Shown one piece after another: positions 32,234-41,382 of a stretch of 64,000 nt of DNA (position 1 is the stretch's first letter; the number at the start of each line of letters is the position of its first letter). The stretch covers positions 62,001 through 126,000 of the forward strand of contig JALWWO010000002.1 in the NCBI GenBank assembly GCA_027078745.1, in the 5' to 3' direction. A model generated the notes under the pieces. It saw only the letters and a program-made list of their open reading frames with translations, ran no database searches and had not been told where the DNA came from. This DNA is from Chromatiaceae bacterium. Lineage in GTDB: Bacteria > Pseudomonadota > Gammaproteobacteria > Chromatiales > Chromatiaceae. A program made the translations under genes and the position numbers.

Positions 32234-32247
32234 TTGACATCTATCAA
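32234..32247. promoter_or_regulatory. FNR/Dnr box between cytochrome c4 and norE
   Basis: TTGACATCTATCAA matches TTGAT-N4-ATCAA at nine of ten bases. For norE on the plus strand a -10-like TCTAAG at 32268-32273 puts the box near -40, suitable for activation. For the cytochrome on the minus strand the box lies at the start codon, where binding could only block, unless that gene uses another promoter. Confidence 0.75.
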
Positions 32248-32332: not shown

Positions 32333-32908
32333 ATGGAACTGCATTCGGCCGCGCGCCGCTATCCACCGGGTGATCTCGCCATCTGGATCTTCATCCTAGC
32401 AGAACTCGGCGTCTTTGCTGTGTTCTTCACCGTCTACGCCTTCACCCGCATGCAGCATGTGGAGCTGTTCAACACCTATCAGCAAACCCTGGATCAGCGA
32501 GCAGCTCTCATCAATACCCTCGCCTTGATCACGAGCAGCTATTTCGTGGTGCGGGCAGTGGCGGCGATTCGGGAAAATGACCGTCGAAGCTGCGTGGGCT
32601 GGTTGAGCGCAGCCCTCGGCATGGGAGGGCTCTTCCTGGTGGTGAAATTCTTGGAATATGCCCATCATTTCGCTGCCGGCGTGCAGCTGAGCACCAATGC
32701 CTTTTATACCTTCTATTTCTCCTTAACCTTTTTCCACTTCATGCATGTGGTGCTGGGCATGGCAATTCTCGCAGCAGTGGCCCTCAAGGCGCATCGAGGC
32801 GGCTATTCCGCTGCCGAGTACACCGGCATTGAAACCGGCGCTTCCTATTGGCATATGGTGGATCTCGTCTGGCTGATCCTCTTTCCCCTCGTCTATGTCA
32901 TGCGGTAA
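32333..32908 (+). CDS. norE: NorE-like cytochrome oxidase subunit III family protein
   Basis: 191 residues from ATG 32333, with AAGGAGG at ideal spacing. Five membrane segments of the cytochrome oxidase subunit III type (DLAIWIFILAELGVFAVFF, LTFFHFMHVVLGM, ASYWHMVDLVWLILFPLVYVMR). NorE proteins accompany nitric oxide reductase and raise its activity without being catalytic. It starts the norE-norF-norQ-norD operon on the plus strand. A second NorE-like gene is at 36077. Confidence 0.9.
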   Translation: MELHSAARRYPPGDLAIWIFILAELGVFAVFFTVYAFTRMQHVELFNTYQQTLDQRAALINTLALITSSYFVVRAVAAIRENDRRSCVGWLSAALGMGGLFLVVKFLEYAHHFAAGVQLSTNAFYTFYFSLTFFHFMHVVLGMAILAAVALKAHRGGYSAAEYTGIETGASYWHMVDLVWLILFPLVYVMR

Positions 32909-32911
32909 ATC

Positions 32912-33190
32912 ATGTTGAAAAGCACTGCCCATTGGGTGCGTCCCTGCACCCGCGTCTATCTCCTCATGATGGGCTTGACCCTCGTCACCTTCCTGTTCGG
33001 CATCCTAGGGGCGCGGGGACTGGGGATTTCCCTGCTTGTGCTCGCCTTCGCCCTCTTCAAGGGTCATCTGGTGGGGGATTACTTCATGGGATTGCGAGGC
33101 GTTCGAGGCCCCTGGCGGTGGGTCATCCTCCTGTGGCTGCTGATTCCCGGCAGCTTGATCAGCACGGCTTTTTACCTCAGCGGATCCTGA
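32912..33190 (+). CDS. norF: NorF-like small membrane protein
   Basis: 92 residues, three membrane helices, cytochrome oxidase subunit IV-like (LVLAFALFKGHLVGDYFMGLR is the signature helix). It lies three bases after norE and four before norQ. Thought to assist NorCB assembly together with NorE. A paralogue sits at 35803. Confidence 0.85.
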   Translation: MLKSTAHWVRPCTRVYLLMMGLTLVTFLFGILGARGLGISLLVLAFALFKGHLVGDYFMGLRGVRGPWRWVILLWLLIPGSLISTAFYLSGS

Positions 33191-33194
33191 TCCC

Positions 33195-33965
33195 ATGGTC
33201 TTCTACCGACCCCAGGGCAATGAAATCGCCCTCTTCGAACACGCCTTTGCCAACCGGTTGCCCCTGATGATCAAGGGACCCACCGGTTGCGGAAAGACCC
33301 GATTTGTGCGCTATATGGCGGAGCGTCTGGAACGCCCCCTTTACACGGTCGCTTGCCATGACGATCTCACGGCAGCGGATCTCACGGGCCGCCATTTGAT
33401 CGGTGAGGGGGGCACCTTCTGGAGCGATGGCCCCTTGACCCGCGCGGTGCGGGAAGGGGCGATCTGCTACCTGGACGAGGTGGTAGAAGCTCGGAAGGAT
33501 ACTACCGTGGTCCTGCATCCCCTCACGGACGACCGCCGGATTCTTCCCCTGGAACGCACCGGCGAAACCCTCCACGCACCGAACGGCTTCATGCTGGTGG
33601 TCTCCTATAACCCGGGTTATCAAAACCTGCTCAAGGGCATGAAGCCGAGCACCCGCCAGCGCTTTGTTGCCATCACCTTCGATTTTCCCCGGCCCGCCTT
33701 GGAAGTGGAGATTCTCCAGGAAGAGGCCGGGATCGACCGGACGACTGCAGAACGTTTGGTGCAGTTAGCCAACTGCTTGCGGGCGCTCAAGGATCACGAT
33801 CTGGAGGAAGCGGCTTCCACGCGTTTGCTCGTCTATGCGGCTACTCTCATCGCCAGCGGTTTAGATCAGCGGGAAGCCTGTCGCGCCGCTCTGGCGGAAC
33901 CCCTGACGGACGACGGAGAGACCCTCAATGCCCTGGGGGAAATCATTGACGCTAACTTGGCTTAG
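33195..33965 (+). CDS. norQ: NorQ, MoxR-type AAA+ ATPase
   Basis: 256 residues. Walker A GPTGCGKT near residue 28, CHDDLTAADLTGRHL pore/insert region, Walker B AICYLDEVVEA, sensor SYNPGYQNLLKGMKPSTRQRF. NorQ works with NorD to insert the non-haem iron (FeB) into NorB. Closely related CbbQ activates Rubisco, but the neighbouring norD and nor genes settle the call. Six bases separate it from norD. Confidence 0.95.
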   Translation: MVFYRPQGNEIALFEHAFANRLPLMIKGPTGCGKTRFVRYMAERLERPLYTVACHDDLTAADLTGRHLIGEGGTFWSDGPLTRAVREGAICYLDEVVEARKDTTVVLHPLTDDRRILPLERTGETLHAPNGFMLVVSYNPGYQNLLKGMKPSTRQRFVAITFDFPRPALEVEILQEEAGIDRTTAERLVQLANCLRALKDHDLEEAASTRLLVYAATLIASGLDQREACRAALAEPLTDDGETLNALGEIIDANLA

Positions 33966-33970
33966 GGGTC

Positions 33971-35806
33971 ATGGAAGAACAGGTAGGTGCCTTTTGGCAC
34001 CGGCTGATCACCCGCTTAGCCGAGCACCGCTATCCCCAAGCGGCCGTGCATCTGGAAAGCGTCGCACCCCTGCTGGGCATCCTGTTCCGAGCCCTAGGGG
34101 GCGATGGAGGCTTGGAGATCTGCGCTGCTGAGGCAGAACCCCATCGTGCTAGAAGGAAATGGCTGCAACGGCTGGCAGGCACGGGAGACCGCATCGCCCT
34201 TGCCTGGCGGGACGAACGCACCCTGCGCTTGCCGCCGGTCCTCGATTGCTTTCCGGAAAGTGCCCTGAACCGAGATCTCTATCTCTGGCTCGCTGCTTTA
34301 GCTGTGCAGCGACCGCCTGCTTCCTTTGGGGACTGGTTCATTCACAGTCAGCAGATGACGCGGGAGACGCTCAGTCGCTTCCCGGGATTGCGATCCCGCT
34401 ATCGCCGATTGGTCGATGCCCATCTCTGCCTGCGTCCCGATCCCGAGCGCTTGCCTCCCGAGGAAGCCCGGCAGGAACGGGCAGTTCGCCAGGCCCTCCA
34501 ATCCCCCGGACAAGTGACTGAACTGCCGCCGGCGAAGCGTCCCCCACAGCCGGTGCCCCTCTGGTTGCATCCCAGTCCACCCCAGGCCGCTGCGCCCGGG
34601 TATCGGGAAGATGACCCCCAGATGACGCCAAGCGATCCGCGCAATCGATCTCTGGGCGCGCGGAAGCGCAAGCGGGGGGAGCGGGTGGCAATGCCCAATA
34701 AGGATCAGGGACTGATCACCATCCGCATGGAGAACATTTTCTCCTGGAGCGAATATGTCAAGGTGGATCGGAGCACGGACGAAGAGGAAGACTTGGATCG
34801 GGCGCAGACTGCGGCGGAGGATCTGGACCGCGTCGCTCTGGCTCGAGATCGCAAGGCATCGGGGGCACGGCTGCGTTTTGATCTGGATCTACCTGCGGAA
34901 TCCGAAGACGATCTGATCCTCCGCGATGGCCTGCTATTGCCTGAATGGGATTGGAAGCGGCGCAGTCTGCTTCCGAACCATTGCCGCGTGCAAGAACTGC
35001 TGGCCTCAGAAGCGCCCCCCCAGCCTCTGCCCCCCCATCTGCGCCGGACAGCCAAGCGCCTGCGGCATCAGTTTCAAGCTTTGACGCCGGCGCGGGTCTG
35101 GCAGCACGGCCAGCCGGATGGGCAGGAAGTAGATCTGGATGCCTACCTTCGCTTTGTAACCGACCGGCGGGCCGGAGTGAATACCCATGCGGATGGGCTC
35201 TATCGGGCCATGCGCACCGGTGCCCGAGATCTCGCCTGCCTGCTCATCGCCGATCTTTCCCTTTCCACGGATACTTGGATCAACGATCAAGCCCGGGTCA
35301 TCGATGTGATTCGGGATAGCCTCTATCTGTTCGCCGAGAGCCTCGCGGCTACTGGAGATGCTTTCGCCATGTTGGGCTTTTCTTCCCGCCGCCGCGATCC
35401 CATCCGCATTCACCAGATCAAGAGCTTCGCAGAGACCTACAGCGCCCAGGTGCGGGGGCGCATCCAGGCCATCAAACCCGGTTACTACACTCGCATGGGC
35501 GCTGCCCTCCGCTATGGTGCCGATCTGCTGGCAGAGCAACCGGCGGGGCGTCGGTTGCTCCTGTTGCTCTCCGATGGCAAGCCAAACGACCTGGACAAAT
35601 ATGAGGGGCGCTACGGCATCGAGGACACCCGCCACGCGGTCCAGGCTGCGCGGCGATTGGGACTCACCCCCTTCTGCGTGACCATCGATGAGCGGGGCAA
35701 CGACTATCTGCCCTATCTCTTCGGCACCGGCGGCTATGTAGTCATCCGGCATCCCTCGGAGTTACCAACCCGCCTGCCCTTGCTCTATGCACGCCTCACC
35801 GCTTAG
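33971..35806 (+). CDS. norD: NorD, von Willebrand A-domain activation protein
   Basis: 611 residues. Variable helical N-terminal half with a proline-rich linker, then a C-terminal VWA domain whose metal-binding site reads ADLSLSTD (DxSxS) near residue 427, with LSDGKPND further on. Partner of NorQ in activating nitric oxide reductase. The stop overlaps by four bases the stop of a norF-like gene on the opposite strand. Confidence 0.94.
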   Translation: MEEQVGAFWHRLITRLAEHRYPQAAVHLESVAPLLGILFRALGGDGGLEICAAEAEPHRARRKWLQRLAGTGDRIALAWRDERTLRLPPVLDCFPESALNRDLYLWLAALAVQRPPASFGDWFIHSQQMTRETLSRFPGLRSRYRRLVDAHLCLRPDPERLPPEEARQERAVRQALQSPGQVTELPPAKRPPQPVPLWLHPSPPQAAAPGYREDDPQMTPSDPRNRSLGARKRKRGERVAMPNKDQGLITIRMENIFSWSEYVKVDRSTDEEEDLDRAQTAAEDLDRVALARDRKASGARLRFDLDLPAESEDDLILRDGLLLPEWDWKRRSLLPNHCRVQELLASEAPPQPLPPHLRRTAKRLRHQFQALTPARVWQHGQPDGQEVDLDAYLRFVTDRRAGVNTHADGLYRAMRTGARDLACLLIADLSLSTDTWINDQARVIDVIRDSLYLFAESLAATGDAFAMLGFSSRRRDPIRIHQIKSFAETYSAQVRGRIQAIKPGYYTRMGAALRYGADLLAEQPAGRRLLLLLSDGKPNDLDKYEGRYGIEDTRHAVQAARRLGLTPFCVTIDERGNDYLPYLFGTGGYVVIRHPSELPTRLPLLYARLTA

Positions 35807-36090
35807 AACCACCGGCCCAGCAACTCGCTGAACAGGAGCAGCAGGGGGATGCTGACACCGTAGAGCCGGACCATCCGGCGGAGAGTCGGGTTGGCATGGT
35901 TCAGTTCCAAGAAGAAATCGATGACCAAGCGGCCCTTGAGGATCATGATCCCGACGATCAGGGCGATGATGGCCAAACGCGGATCGCCGGATTCTCCGAG
36001 AAACAGCCCGCCCAAGCTGAGGAACACCAGCGCACCCCAAGCAAACTCCAGCCGGTATTTTCCTTGCAGGGCGGCTTTAAGGTAGGACAT
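35803..36090 (-). CDS. Second NorF-like membrane protein
   Basis: 95 residues with three membrane helices and the LIVGIMILKGRLVIDFFLELNHA signature of the cytochrome oxidase subunit IV family. It differs strongly from norF at 32912 and overlaps the upstream norE-like gene by 14 bases. Minus-strand operon with DUF2189 and the second norE-like gene; probably assists NorCB or another haem-copper enzyme. Confidence 0.82.
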   Translation of the reverse strand: MSYLKAALQGKYRLEFAWGALVFLSLGGLFLGESGDPRLAIIALIVGIMILKGRLVIDFFLELNHANPTLRRMVRLYGVSIPLLLLFSELLGRWF

Positions 36091-36658
36091 AGCACAGGGG
36101 GAAGATCATGAGCCAAATGAGATCCGTTGCATGCCAATAGCTGGCGAAAGCCACCAATCCGCTGTGGGATTGGGCGGAGTAGCCCCCCAGGGCTGTGCGG
36201 AAGAACACCCAGAGCAGGCCGAGCAAGCCCCAGCACACATGGACCAAATGGTTGAAGGTCAGATAATAATAGGCCATCTGAAACACGTCCCCCCGACCAT
36301 CAAGCCCCTGAGCGAGATTCCACCGGATTTCCAAGAACTTGACCACCGGATAACCGGCCCCCACCAGCCCGGCGCCGCCCAACCAAGCGAGGCAAGCCCG
36401 CTGCTGCCCCGCCCGCATGGCCCAGACCCCGCGGGCGATGAGATAGCTGCTGGTGATCATGATCAGGGTGTTGGCTGTGCCCGCGAGCTTGGAAAGCTGC
36501 TGGGAGCCCTGATGAAAGGCTTCGGGATGGTAAAAACGGGCGACGAAGTACACCAAAAACATGAGGGCGAATTCCGTGAGCTCCGCATAGATGCCCACCC
36601 AGATCGCCCGATTGCCAGGGATATCGCTGCCTTGACCGAAGAAAGGAGAGAAAGCCAT
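36077..36658 (-). CDS. Second NorE-like subunit III family protein
   Basis: 193 residues, five membrane helices: IWVGIYAELTEFALMFLVYF, MAYYYLTFNHLVHVCWGLLG and ASYWHATDLIWLMIFPLCYVLP align with the norE gene at 32333. The start overlaps the DUF2189 stop as TGATG, so translation is coupled. It belongs to the transcript leading from norCB. Two subunit III-like proteins for one NorB is unusual. Confidence 0.85.
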   Translation of the reverse strand: MAFSPFFGQGSDIPGNRAIWVGIYAELTEFALMFLVYFVARFYHPEAFHQGSQQLSKLAGTANTLIMITSSYLIARGVWAMRAGQQRACLAWLGGAGLVGAGYPVVKFLEIRWNLAQGLDGRGDVFQMAYYYLTFNHLVHVCWGLLGLLWVFFRTALGGYSAQSHSGLVAFASYWHATDLIWLMIFPLCYVLP

Positions 36659-37434
36659 CAGGCAGCCTCAGCGAGGGGGAAAGCCCGTCGGTAGAGAAAG
36701 AAACAAGCATAGGCCAGCACGGGCAGAGTGATGAAGAGCAAAGGCAAGCCGAGCACAGAAATCACCAAGAGGCCTGAAAAGATCCACCCCCAGAGGAAAC
36801 TCACCAGGGCGTTTTGAAAGACCGCGCGGACGCTGGCGCTGATGGCAGCTGTCAAGGACAGCCGCTGTTCATAGAGCAGGGGAACGGAAAAGCTGGCGAT
36901 GATGAAGAGAGCGAAGGCGAGTGCCAACCCCATGAGGCTAGACCAGAAGAGAAAGGGGATGACAGAAGGTTTTAGGGGGATCAGCAGGGGCGCCGCATAG
37001 GGCAAAGGCTCCGGCCCGATCATGAAGGCGTAGAGCACCGCCGCATCGCTGATCCAGATCAGAAACAAAAAGATACAGATGCCGCCGATCACCCAGAAGC
37101 CGCCAGGCGCTTGGCGAATGGCGAGCAAAGCTTGCTGAAACCTGGGCTTGTGTCCCTGCTCCCACGCGCGCATCAATGGGAAGAAACCGATGAGCAGGAG
37201 GGGGGCGACCAGCAAAAAACCGATTCCCAGGGGAAGCACCATGGGAGCGACCTGCATTTTTCCTGCAATCCCCAGGAAAAACAGACCCATTGCAACATCT
37301 AATCCAGCCCAGGCGAGGCTGGGCCCGAGCAGATTTTGGAAAGTTTCCCAACCCTGACGCAAGGCGAGGATGAGATCGCCGAAAACAAGCCGCTGCGGTC
37401 GGAGGACTGCGGGGGAAGCGGGTACTTGCTGCAT
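36658..37434 (-). CDS. DUF2189 membrane protein
   Basis: 258 residues from ATG 37434 (a longer frame overlaps norB and is rejected). Five or six membrane helices; the FGDLILALRQGWETFQ N-terminal motif and the repeat-like FQQALLAIRQAPGGF region are typical of DUF2189, often found near cytochrome oxidase or nor genes. Function is unknown, possibly assembly of haem-copper enzymes. It lies after the norCB terminator and before the second norEF pair. Confidence 0.78.
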   Translation of the reverse strand: MQQVPASPAVLRPQRLVFGDLILALRQGWETFQNLLGPSLAWAGLDVAMGLFFLGIAGKMQVAPMVLPLGIGFLLVAPLLLIGFFPLMRAWEQGHKPRFQQALLAIRQAPGGFWVIGGICIFLFLIWISDAAVLYAFMIGPEPLPYAAPLLIPLKPSVIPFLFWSSLMGLALAFALFIIASFSVPLLYEQRLSLTAAISASVRAVFQNALVSFLWGWIFSGLLVISVLGLPLLFITLPVLAYACFFLYRRAFPLAEAA

Positions 37435-37455
37435 AGGACTGTAACCCGGAGATGG

Positions 37456-37485
37456 AAACACAAACGCCGGTGCAAGGCACCGGCG
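37456..37485 (-). terminator. Terminator after norB
   Basis: Nine-base stem CGCCGGTGC / GCACCGGCG with a three-base loop, followed on the minus strand by TTTGTGTTT, 28 bases past the norB stop. Confidence 0.75.
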
Positions 37486-37513
37486 CTTACGATAGGCAAT
37501 ACCGAGGATTCGG

Positions 37514-39399
<1,886 letters not shown>

Positions 39400-39464
39400 G
39401 GGTTCCAGTTCTCCAGAGAAGAATATCCGCCGGCTCATTGCACTGTTGCCCCCCTAGGATAACC

Positions 39465-39478
39465 TTGATGCATGTCAA
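39465..39478. promoter_or_regulatory. FNR/Dnr box between norC and dnr
   Basis: TTGATGCATGTCAA matches TTGAT-N4-ATCAA at nine of ten bases. On the minus strand a -10-like TGCAAT at 39437-39442 puts the box centre at -41.5 for norC. On the plus strand a CATAAT at 39505-39510 puts it near -45 for dnr, so the regulator may control itself. Confidence 0.8.
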
Positions 39479-39549: not shown

Positions 39550-40254
39550 ATGGATCGGGTATCCGTTGCGGAGCTGCGCGGAACGCTCCTGCTCTCGGGA
39601 TTAACGGAAAGACAACTACAACGGGTGGCCCGTCGGGCGATTCGATTGCGTCTGGGAGAAGGGCGCATGCTCTTTACCCAGGGAGATCCCGCAGATCGGT
39701 TCTTTCTGGTGCGCAAGGGTAAAGTGCGTTTGTTCCGGCTCTCCCCGGAAGGTGCGGAAAAGGTGATCGAGATCGTCGCAGCTGGACAAACCTTTGCCGA
39801 AGCCCTGATGTTTCTCAACGCGCCTCGATATCCCGTCTGCGCTGCCGCTCTCTGTCCCACAGAACTCATCGCCATCGATGCCAAGGACTTCGCACAGATG
39901 TTGCGGGAATCCATCGATACCTGCTTCGTGCTCTTGGGCATTCTCAGCCAGCGGTTGCGGGGACTGATTGGAGAGATCGATAATCTCACTCTGCACACGG
40001 CGACCAGCCGGATGGCCCGCTATTTGCTCGCCAAACTGCCTAAAACAGATCGAGTTGTGGTGCTGGATGTGCGCAAGGGAGTGCTCGCCTCTCGGCTCTC
40101 GATCAAGCCGGAAACTTTCTCCCGCGTGGAGAAGAGCCTGAGCGATCGGGGTATCATTCAGGTACAGGGCAGTCGCGTCACCGTGCTCGATCGAGCCGCC
40201 TTAGAGGATATCGCTAGGCTTGGGGATTCCCTAGAGCTGGACCCCCTGCGATAG
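39550..40254 (+). CDS. Crp/Fnr-family regulator, Dnr-like
   Basis: 234 residues. Cyclic-nucleotide-type sensor domain (LTERQLQRVARRA, FTQGDPADRFFLVRKGKVRLF, EGAEKVIEIVAAGQTFAEALMF) and C-terminal helix-turn-helix (GVLASRLSIKPETFSRVEKSL). It lacks the N-terminal Cys cluster of FNR, which fits Dnr-type regulators that sense NO through haem. Divergent from norC and with boxes of the right type before napF, norE and norC, it is the likely activator of the denitrification genes here. Confidence 0.88.
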   Translation: MDRVSVAELRGTLLLSGLTERQLQRVARRAIRLRLGEGRMLFTQGDPADRFFLVRKGKVRLFRLSPEGAEKVIEIVAAGQTFAEALMFLNAPRYPVCAAALCPTELIAIDAKDFAQMLRESIDTCFVLLGILSQRLRGLIGEIDNLTLHTATSRMARYLLAKLPKTDRVVVLDVRKGVLASRLSIKPETFSRVEKSLSDRGIIQVQGSRVTVLDRAALEDIARLGDSLELDPLR

Positions 40255-40875: not shown

Positions 40876-41382
40876 TTAAGGAAAGGGTATCGGCTGGGTG
40901 AATACATAGTCGTTTTCCTTTCTGGGGGTATGACATCCGAAGCATTCCTGATCGAAATGCTCACTCTTACCATAGGGTATTTGGTCCTCCCCGACCCAGC
41001 GTGCATAACCCCATCCGCCGGTGTCCTCATATTTTTCCGGATCTTTGATCATGAATTCTGCATGAACGAACTTGCCGGGCACCGTGGCTGCGGGCCAAGC
41101 GGCATGTTTGGCATCCTTGAGCACAATCTTGGCGAGCACCGTGCCCTTTGGCCAAGGATTGGTGTCCCCCGCTCGGGCGGCTTCGATGGCTCGATCGTTG
41201 CCGAGAATCACCCGTAGGCTTTGGTTGTCCGTGCGATGGGATATCCCGATGACCCGCCAATTTTTATAGCCAGCGGGCAGCTCGATGCCGTTGGGGGCCG
41301 GGGGCACGTCGGATTCTCCGTAGATCGGCGCTGCGGCACTGAGTCCGAGCAAAAAACCGATCGGCCATAGGTTAGATCGCAT
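40876..41382 (-). CDS. Cytochrome P460-family protein
   Basis: 168 residues with a signal peptide (ending near IYGES) and one C-terminal haem site CFGCH at 147-151. ELPAGYKNWRVIGISHRTDNQSLRVILGND and KGTVLAKIVLKDAKHAAWP match the P460/cytochrome c'-beta family. P460 enzymes turn hydroxylamine plus NO into N2O or nitrite, while c'-beta binds NO; the deciding residue near the haem (a cross-linking lysine, perhaps Lys85, or a Phe cap) cannot be assigned by eye. Its place beside nor genes supports NO or hydroxylamine handling. AGGAGG precedes the start. Confidence 0.87.
   Translation of the reverse strand: MRSNLWPIGFLLGLSAAAPIYGESDVPPAPNGIELPAGYKNWRVIGISHRTDNQSLRVILGNDRAIEAARAGDTNPWPKGTVLAKIVLKDAKHAAWPAATVPGKFVHAEFMIKDPEKYEDTGGWGYARWVGEDQIPYGKSEHFDQECFGCHTPRKENDYVFTQPIPFP

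Follow-up and report, generated by a model that had tools for sequence, protein, structure and literature searches.

A second, diverged NorE/NorF-type pair at the nitric oxide reductase locus of a Chromatiaceae bacterium, probably a further helper of nitric oxide reduction

The stretch of DNA considered here, referred to as the window, is 64,000 nucleotides long (G000:C2:62001-126000) and comes from a Chromatiaceae bacterium whose assembly comprises 2.18 Mb on 24 contigs and is 97% complete. Around the genes of one nitric oxide reductase (NOR), it holds two different gene pairs of the NorE/NorF type, both encoding small membrane proteins, the second of which is probably a second helper of nitric oxide (NO) reduction and not part of another respiratory enzyme. 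Based on open reading frames (ORFs) and Pfam domains, with gene names taken from domains plus gene order, the plus strand carries norE1-norF1-norQ-norD (32333-35806) and the minus strand carries norC-norB-DUF2189-norE2-norF2 (39438-35803), which bears out the two pairs, one ahead of norQ and norD and one behind norCB with DUF2189, that a preliminary description made from the letters of the window had proposed. The two operons meet tail to tail at norD and norF2; because the norD stop occupies 35804-35806 and the norF2 stop is the complement of 35803-35805, they overlap by 4 bases, as that description had stated. The features are listed below, the boxes being scored against TTGAT-N4-ATCAA, which we take to be the Fnr/Dnr consensus.

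32234-32247, plus strand: Fnr/Dnr-like box TTGACATCTATCAA, upstream of norE1, 9/10 of the assumed consensus
32333-32908, plus strand: norE1, canonical NorE, COX3-like (Pfam COX3, E 1.4e-16), falling in the NorE1 clade
32912-33190, plus strand: norF1, COX4_pro-like (Pfam COX4_pro, E 9.3e-13)
33195-33965, plus strand: norQ, MoxR-type AAA+ ATPase (Pfam AAA_5 and CbbQ_C)
33971-35806, plus strand: norD, VWA-domain protein (Pfam VWA), named from its domain and place
35803-36090, minus strand: norF2, COX4_pro-like partner of norE2 (Pfam COX4_pro, E 1.1e-11), adjoining norE2 in many loci
36077-36658, minus strand: norE2, COX3-like, of a separate NorE clade (Pfam COX3, E 6.7e-5; tree; predicted fold)
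36658-37434, minus strand: DUF2189 integral membrane protein (Pfam, E 1.2e-22), immediately upstream of norE2
37459-37491, minus strand: hairpin of 15 pairs in the norB/DUF2189 gap (RNA fold -22.9 kcal/mol; inverted repeat I3)
37514-38920, minus strand: norB, catalytic subunit of the c-type NOR (cNOR) (Pfam COX1, E 3.4e-80)
38947-39438, minus strand: norC, cytochrome c subunit (Pfam Cytochrom_C)
39465-39478, minus strand: Fnr/Dnr-like box TTGACATGCATCAA, upstream of norC, 9/10 of the assumed consensus
39550-40254, plus strand: Crp/Fnr-family regulator, divergent from norCB (NCBIfam FtrB/Crp-like, below cut-off)

The assignment of norE1 is further backed by the norCB-norEF-norQ order seen in relatives. 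The COX3 score of the norE2 product, 23.3 bits, lies slightly below the Pfam cut-off of 23.8 bits, yet profile, predicted fold and tree all mark this protein as COX3-like; from norE1 to norC, none of the window's proteins scored above cut-off with an NCBIfam model, and PHROGs gave no match for NorE2. With NorE2 41-44% identical to NorE1 of the window and NorF2 22% identical to NorF1, the earlier characterization of the pairs as diverged holds. In a NorE tree of 81 rows (43 of NorE2 and 16 of NorE1; support given as paired values), the NorE side splits from COX3 of the CtaE/CyoC/QoxC type at 100/100, NorE2 forms a single clade at 100/100, and NorE1 forms a clade at 91/84; the join of NorE1 and NorE2 versus alphaproteobacterial NorE is weaker (96/77), another fork on the NorE side is weak (91/45), and the branches of some reference rows are long. 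Within its clade, NorE2 of the window clusters with Chromatiaceae/Thiosymbion-type sequences (96/80). A recent duplication of the window's own pair was considered and rejected, since the two belong to separate clades, each common to many genera. Residues common to both NorE groups and COX3 include E110, H137, H140, W175, H176, D179 and W182 (NorE2 numbering), and F186 and Y190 are further residues shared with subunit III of the oxidases; positions such as E29 and N136, occupied by V and F in NorE1, distinguish NorE2, whose alignment of 37 rows contains 41 invariant columns. The structure predicted for NorE2 has a COX3 fold, with a predicted local distance difference test score (pLDDT) of 89.

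The occurrence of the second pair was surveyed with a group-2 profile, the hits of which fall into two score classes separated by an empty gap. Two families were covered, namely 199 genomes of the family of Dechloromonas denitrificans (with a filter of at least 90% completeness, its effect unconfirmed since per-genome values were not returned) and 194 genomes of the window's family, and NorE2 was present in 110 of the 393; all co-occurrence p-values given here ignore the relatedness of the genomes. In the former family, NorE2 was found in 62 genomes, NorE1 in 94 (34 of them lacking NorE2) and cNorB in 104, and NorE2 is accompanied by NorE1 in 60/62 (p 9.8e-24) and by cNorB in 58/62 (p 1.5e-16), where the cNorB count leaves out matches of 40-47% in G107, G197 and G274. 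In the window's family, NorE2 is present in 48 genomes and NorE1 in 85, with both in 46, NorE1 only in 39 and neither in 107 (p 1.6e-18); an initial look at 34 same-family genomes had found group-2 NorE in 8, the window's own included, all of which also carry NorE1. At the genus level, 17 of 61 genera contain NorE2 and every one of the 17 contains NorE1 (p 5e-6), in a count that scored any NorE, which equals NorE1 at this level. Moreover, cNorB is present in 37 of the 39 genomes that yielded NorE2 loci, the cNOR survey having covered these genomes and the D. denitrificans family, not the window's own. With 60/62 and 46/48 NorE2 genomes also containing NorE1, NorE2 is thus an addition to NorE1, rarely seen in its absence. 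The rule from which the preliminary description had started, that subunit III/IV-like proteins usually come once per NOR, fails in both families, as NorE2 also occurs in 106 of the 179 NorE1 genomes.

Of the 349 relatives confirmed when GTDB contigs were scanned with a group-2 alignment, the loci of 80, each 3-17 kb long, were analysed using ORFs from codon-scored gene calls; longest-ORF calls were poor in high-GC loci, some antisense shadows are left (cluster c4), and at L148 the caller missed norE2 and nirS, though these lie 2.2 kb apart in genome G245. The hosts include Thauera, Aromatoleum, Azoarcus, Dechloromonas, Azonexus, Azospira, Denitromonas and Accumulibacter, as well as Noviherbaspirillum, Sedimenticola, Thiosymbion, Thiolapillus, a Gallionellaceae metagenome-assembled genome (MAG) and other MAGs, so that NorE2/NorF2 recurs in relatives of Sedimenticola and Thiosymbion and in Rhodocyclales, mostly as a stand-alone pair. 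Its neighbourhoods vary (e.g., mnmG, dnaG-rpoD, a glycogen-synthase-like gene or queG), with nirS counted in 4 of the 80 loci, a second d1-haem protein in 4, DUF2189 in 3, a CcoG-like gene in 21 and hemN in 8. No called ORF in the 80 loci was labelled norB, norC, norQ or norD at E 1e-3; with flanks free of nor genes, the NorE2 pair usually lies away from them.

Physical links of the second pair to NO genes are those to norCB in the window, to norE1 in 7 genomes and to nirS in several loci. In 7 genomes, all of one genus in the window's family, norE1 and norE2 are arranged head to head with 312-355 bp between them; norEFQD was read in three of these (G007, G405 and G378). At the Thiosymbion loci L038 and L145, DUF2189-norE2-norF2 precede nirS and genes for a d1 protein and a peptidase, and norCB (NorB 89% identical) is some 8 kb away from norE2; nirS also shares a locus with NorE2 at L067, L068, L069 and L072, as well as at L147 and L149. 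DUF2189 is placed ahead of norE2 in the window and at L067, L068 and L069 (37-40% identical), and no paper on DUF2189 together with nitric oxide reductase was found in a single search of the open-licence PMC literature. On the contig of the window, nirS (80% identical to the L038 protein) lies about 11 kb before the window start, and napA lies to the left of the nor genes.

Some further observations were made at these and related loci. A second d1-haem-like c-type protein is encoded beside nirS and NorE2 at L069:1471-3114 and L038:6650-8296, and the L069 copy gives a weak match, far below cut-off, to the "clade III lactonase-type" nitrous oxide (N2O) reductase model. Noviherbaspirillum autotrophicum TSA66 has four NorE2 loci (L114, L116, L119 and L128), three with an identical layout over 16 kb, including CcoG-like and nitrite/sulfite reductase-like genes, as if the region had been repeated. 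Annotation gives the Thiothrix fructosivorans plasmid pTfr153 (L135:3944-7739) the order norE-norF-hemerythrin-norQ-norD, and the stretch shown lacks norB. In the window itself, a cytochrome P460-family gene (Pfam; 40876-41382) is located 1.4 kb from norC, beyond the Crp/Fnr-type regulator, and an Rfam scan of 30-42 kb returned a tRNA and nothing else.

As for transcriptional control, an extra box matching 9/10 positions occurs at 39298, within norC, in addition to the boxes upstream of norE1 and norC. Across genomes, a box of at least 9/10 within 250 nt upstream was found at 14 of 77 distinct NorE2 loci versus 16 of 609 other ORFs there (p 5e-7), in a count that treats related species as separate and in which several control hits come from the same divergent intergenic region; in the window's family, where 7 loci were inspected, a perfect box stands ahead of norE2 in G007 and the remaining loci reach 6-8 of 10. 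The hairpin between norB and DUF2189, a feature that the preliminary description did not list, has a z of -5.15 for 37450-37500 (51 nt) and -3.73 for the whole gap (37440-37516, 77 nt), with a G+C-rich core followed on the minus strand by TTTGTGTTTCC, part of which can extend the stem; a terminator scan of the region found no excess (8 versus 7.6 expected). This structure may be a terminator, an attenuator or a stem that stabilizes the norCB message.

On balance, both pairs are best read as NorE/NorF-type accessory proteins of denitrification, the second being a distinct paralogous clade that is added to the canonical first, and this reading is based on family identity, predicted fold, clade, co-occurrence and the lack of another suitable haem-copper partner in the genome. 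Pair 1 is the canonical NorEF, which travels with norCB and norQD; pair 2 is usually stand-alone, preceded in some lineages by an Fnr/Dnr-like box, and here is placed behind norCB with DUF2189. A link of pair 2 to NO reduction is quite likely and, as a separate, widespread family nearly always added to the first pair, it is probably a second helper of that process. As to the mechanism, NorE and NorF would form a membrane module resembling subunits III/IV, which would bind NorB, or a NirS-NOR complex, and would keep NO reduction running under sustained NO, with pair 2 supplying a second, separately regulated dose or isoform; that the module binds in this manner and sustains NO reduction is offered as a tentative and somewhat doubtful step. 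It seems improbable that pair 2, in some lineages together with DUF2189, is a free-standing, anaerobically controlled NO-handling membrane module of denitrifiers, a subunit III/IV-like pair that has parted from its catalytic subunit and exerts its effect in trans, on the step from NirS to NOR; if true, such a pair would reveal what NorEF as a whole does.

Several results weigh against a role of pair 2 beside NOR. At E 1e-30, norB, norC, norQ, norD and ccoN were found in 0/80 NorE2 loci (within flanks of 3-17 kb), so the link between NorE2 and NOR is mostly statistical, and the association with NirS in the D. denitrificans family (61/62, p 4e-14; weaker NirS matches in G100, G121, G127 and G171 left out) is on a par with that with NOR; a NirK survey, with 5/199 genomes above cut-off, was not used. 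NorE2 occurs in the absence of a NorE1 match in G119, G222, G311 and G425, and in the absence of a cNorB match in G119, G200, G222 and G271, where gaps in the drafts are possible; G200 and G271 have NorE1, and G119 and G222 have neither NorE1 nor cNorB. The best boxes before DUF2189 and norE2 in the window reach 7/10 and 8/10, respectively, and 63 of the 77 NorE2 loci have no box of at least 9/10. At the same time, the strong hairpin after norB leaves the co-transcription of pair 2 with norCB uncertain, and it may separate the transcription of DUF2189-norE2-norF2 from that of norCB.

Alternatively, pair 2 might supply subunits III and IV to another haem-copper oxidase, of the aa3, bo3 or cbb3 type, along the lines of the preliminary suggestion that one pair may serve another haem-copper enzyme. 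The COX3 and COX4_pro domains, and the CcoG-like gene in 21/80 NorE2 loci, would fit such a role; nevertheless, it is very unlikely given the content of the genome. The assembly has two COX1 matches, which are norB, the only one as previously noted, and a gene on contig 6 that exceeds the curated cut-off as ccoN and has ccoO, ccoP and ccoG alongside; with these alone, there is no aa3/bo3 oxidase for the second pair to serve, and no aa3/bo3-type COX1 was found in the 97% that the assembly represents. Enzymes of the cbb3 type are not known to use COX3. The two COX3 and two COX4_pro matches across the assembly are all accounted for by the two NorE/NorF pairs, and it is unlikely, though possible, that an oxidase is hidden in the few percent that the assembly lacks. 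Moreover, the occurrence of NorE2 follows norE1 and norB, NorE2 is absent from 91 of the 95 cNorB-lacking genomes of one family (whose cbb3, aa3 and bo3 enzymes were not scored), ccoN is missing from all 80 loci, and the tree places NorE2 apart from CtaE/CyoC/QoxC instead of grouping the second pair firmly with a different oxidase, the outcome for which a phylogeny had been proposed as a check. On genome content and tree, an oxidase partner was therefore rejected. As the preliminary description also suggested, the two pairs may form mixed complexes.

A free-standing membrane module that handles nitrite or NO, for example one tied to NirS or acting as a NirS-NOR scaffold, and not a NOR subunit, agrees with the flanks of all 80 loci, which contain no norCBQD gene, and with the presence of NirS in 61 of 62 NorE2 genomes. 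When only genomes possessing both cNorB and NorE1 are compared, NirS is found in 57/58 with NorE2 versus 27/34 without it (p 0.0035), and nirS shares the NorE2 locus in several lineages, besides lying on the window's own contig. However, NirS is also present in 66 genomes that lack NorE2, and both the window and one genus show pair 2 linked to nor genes, which leaves this explanation rather unlikely. Far less plausible still is a passenger or decaying duplicate with no function of its own: the variable neighbourhoods and the marginal COX3 score of NorE2 would be in keeping with it, but the invariant columns, the confidently predicted fold, the presence in 110/393 genomes and the enriched upstream boxes speak against decay.

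In Rhodobacter sphaeroides, norEF reportedly limits the accumulation of NO and helps NOR to retain its capacity when exposure to NO is chronic, as Bergaust et al. are said to have found in 2014. A 2026 paper still treats NorE and NorF as proteins of unknown function; excerpts of PMC8139620 state that norE and norF may be encoded apart or be absent, and those of PMC6152468 that norE/norF of Marinobacter were overlooked by annotation. No name or description of a second NorEF family was found in the excerpts available from the open-licence PMC literature, and what is new here is that pair 2 represents a NorEF clade of its own, which is widespread and nested within genomes that have NorE1. As this clade is separate and mostly nor-free, it offers a clean genetic handle in cultured strains of, for instance, Thauera, Aromatoleum and Dechloromonas, one that could tell a structural part in NOR from a broader involvement in NO handling, with relevance to how much NO leaks in denitrification, the step before N2O. 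In annotation practice, a denitrifier gene labelled "cytochrome c oxidase subunit 3" may in fact encode a NorE.

Among known systems, subunits III/IV of the aa3 and bo3 oxidases (CtaE, CyoC/CyoD and QoxC) are alike in fold and residues, with template modelling (TM) scores, by query, to the predicted NorE2 fold of 0.84 for subunit III of Corynebacterium glutamicum aa3 and 0.70-0.80 for the subunit III entries of Escherichia coli bo3, whereas NorE2 is set apart from them at 100/100 and has no matching subunit I in the genome. The orphan COX3-COX4 pairs on plasmids of Azoarcus sp. KH32C (L132:3950-4812), Azospirillum (L133:3929-4811) and Rhodococcus (L139:3941-4871) are also two-gene units, whose 4 kb flanks contain no gene annotated as oxidase subunit I; they fall outside the NorE2 clade and lie in catabolic or other neighbourhoods. 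NorE/NorF of the cNOR clusters of the Paracoccus, rhizobial and Ruegeria type consist of the same COX3-like and COX4_pro-like pair, lie on the NorE side of the tree and share the link to NO reduction; in comparison with these, NorE2 is a separate clade, with about 26-32% identity to the listed alphaproteobacterial plasmid matches (some of them not NorE), and is usually located away from norCBQD and present besides NorE1.

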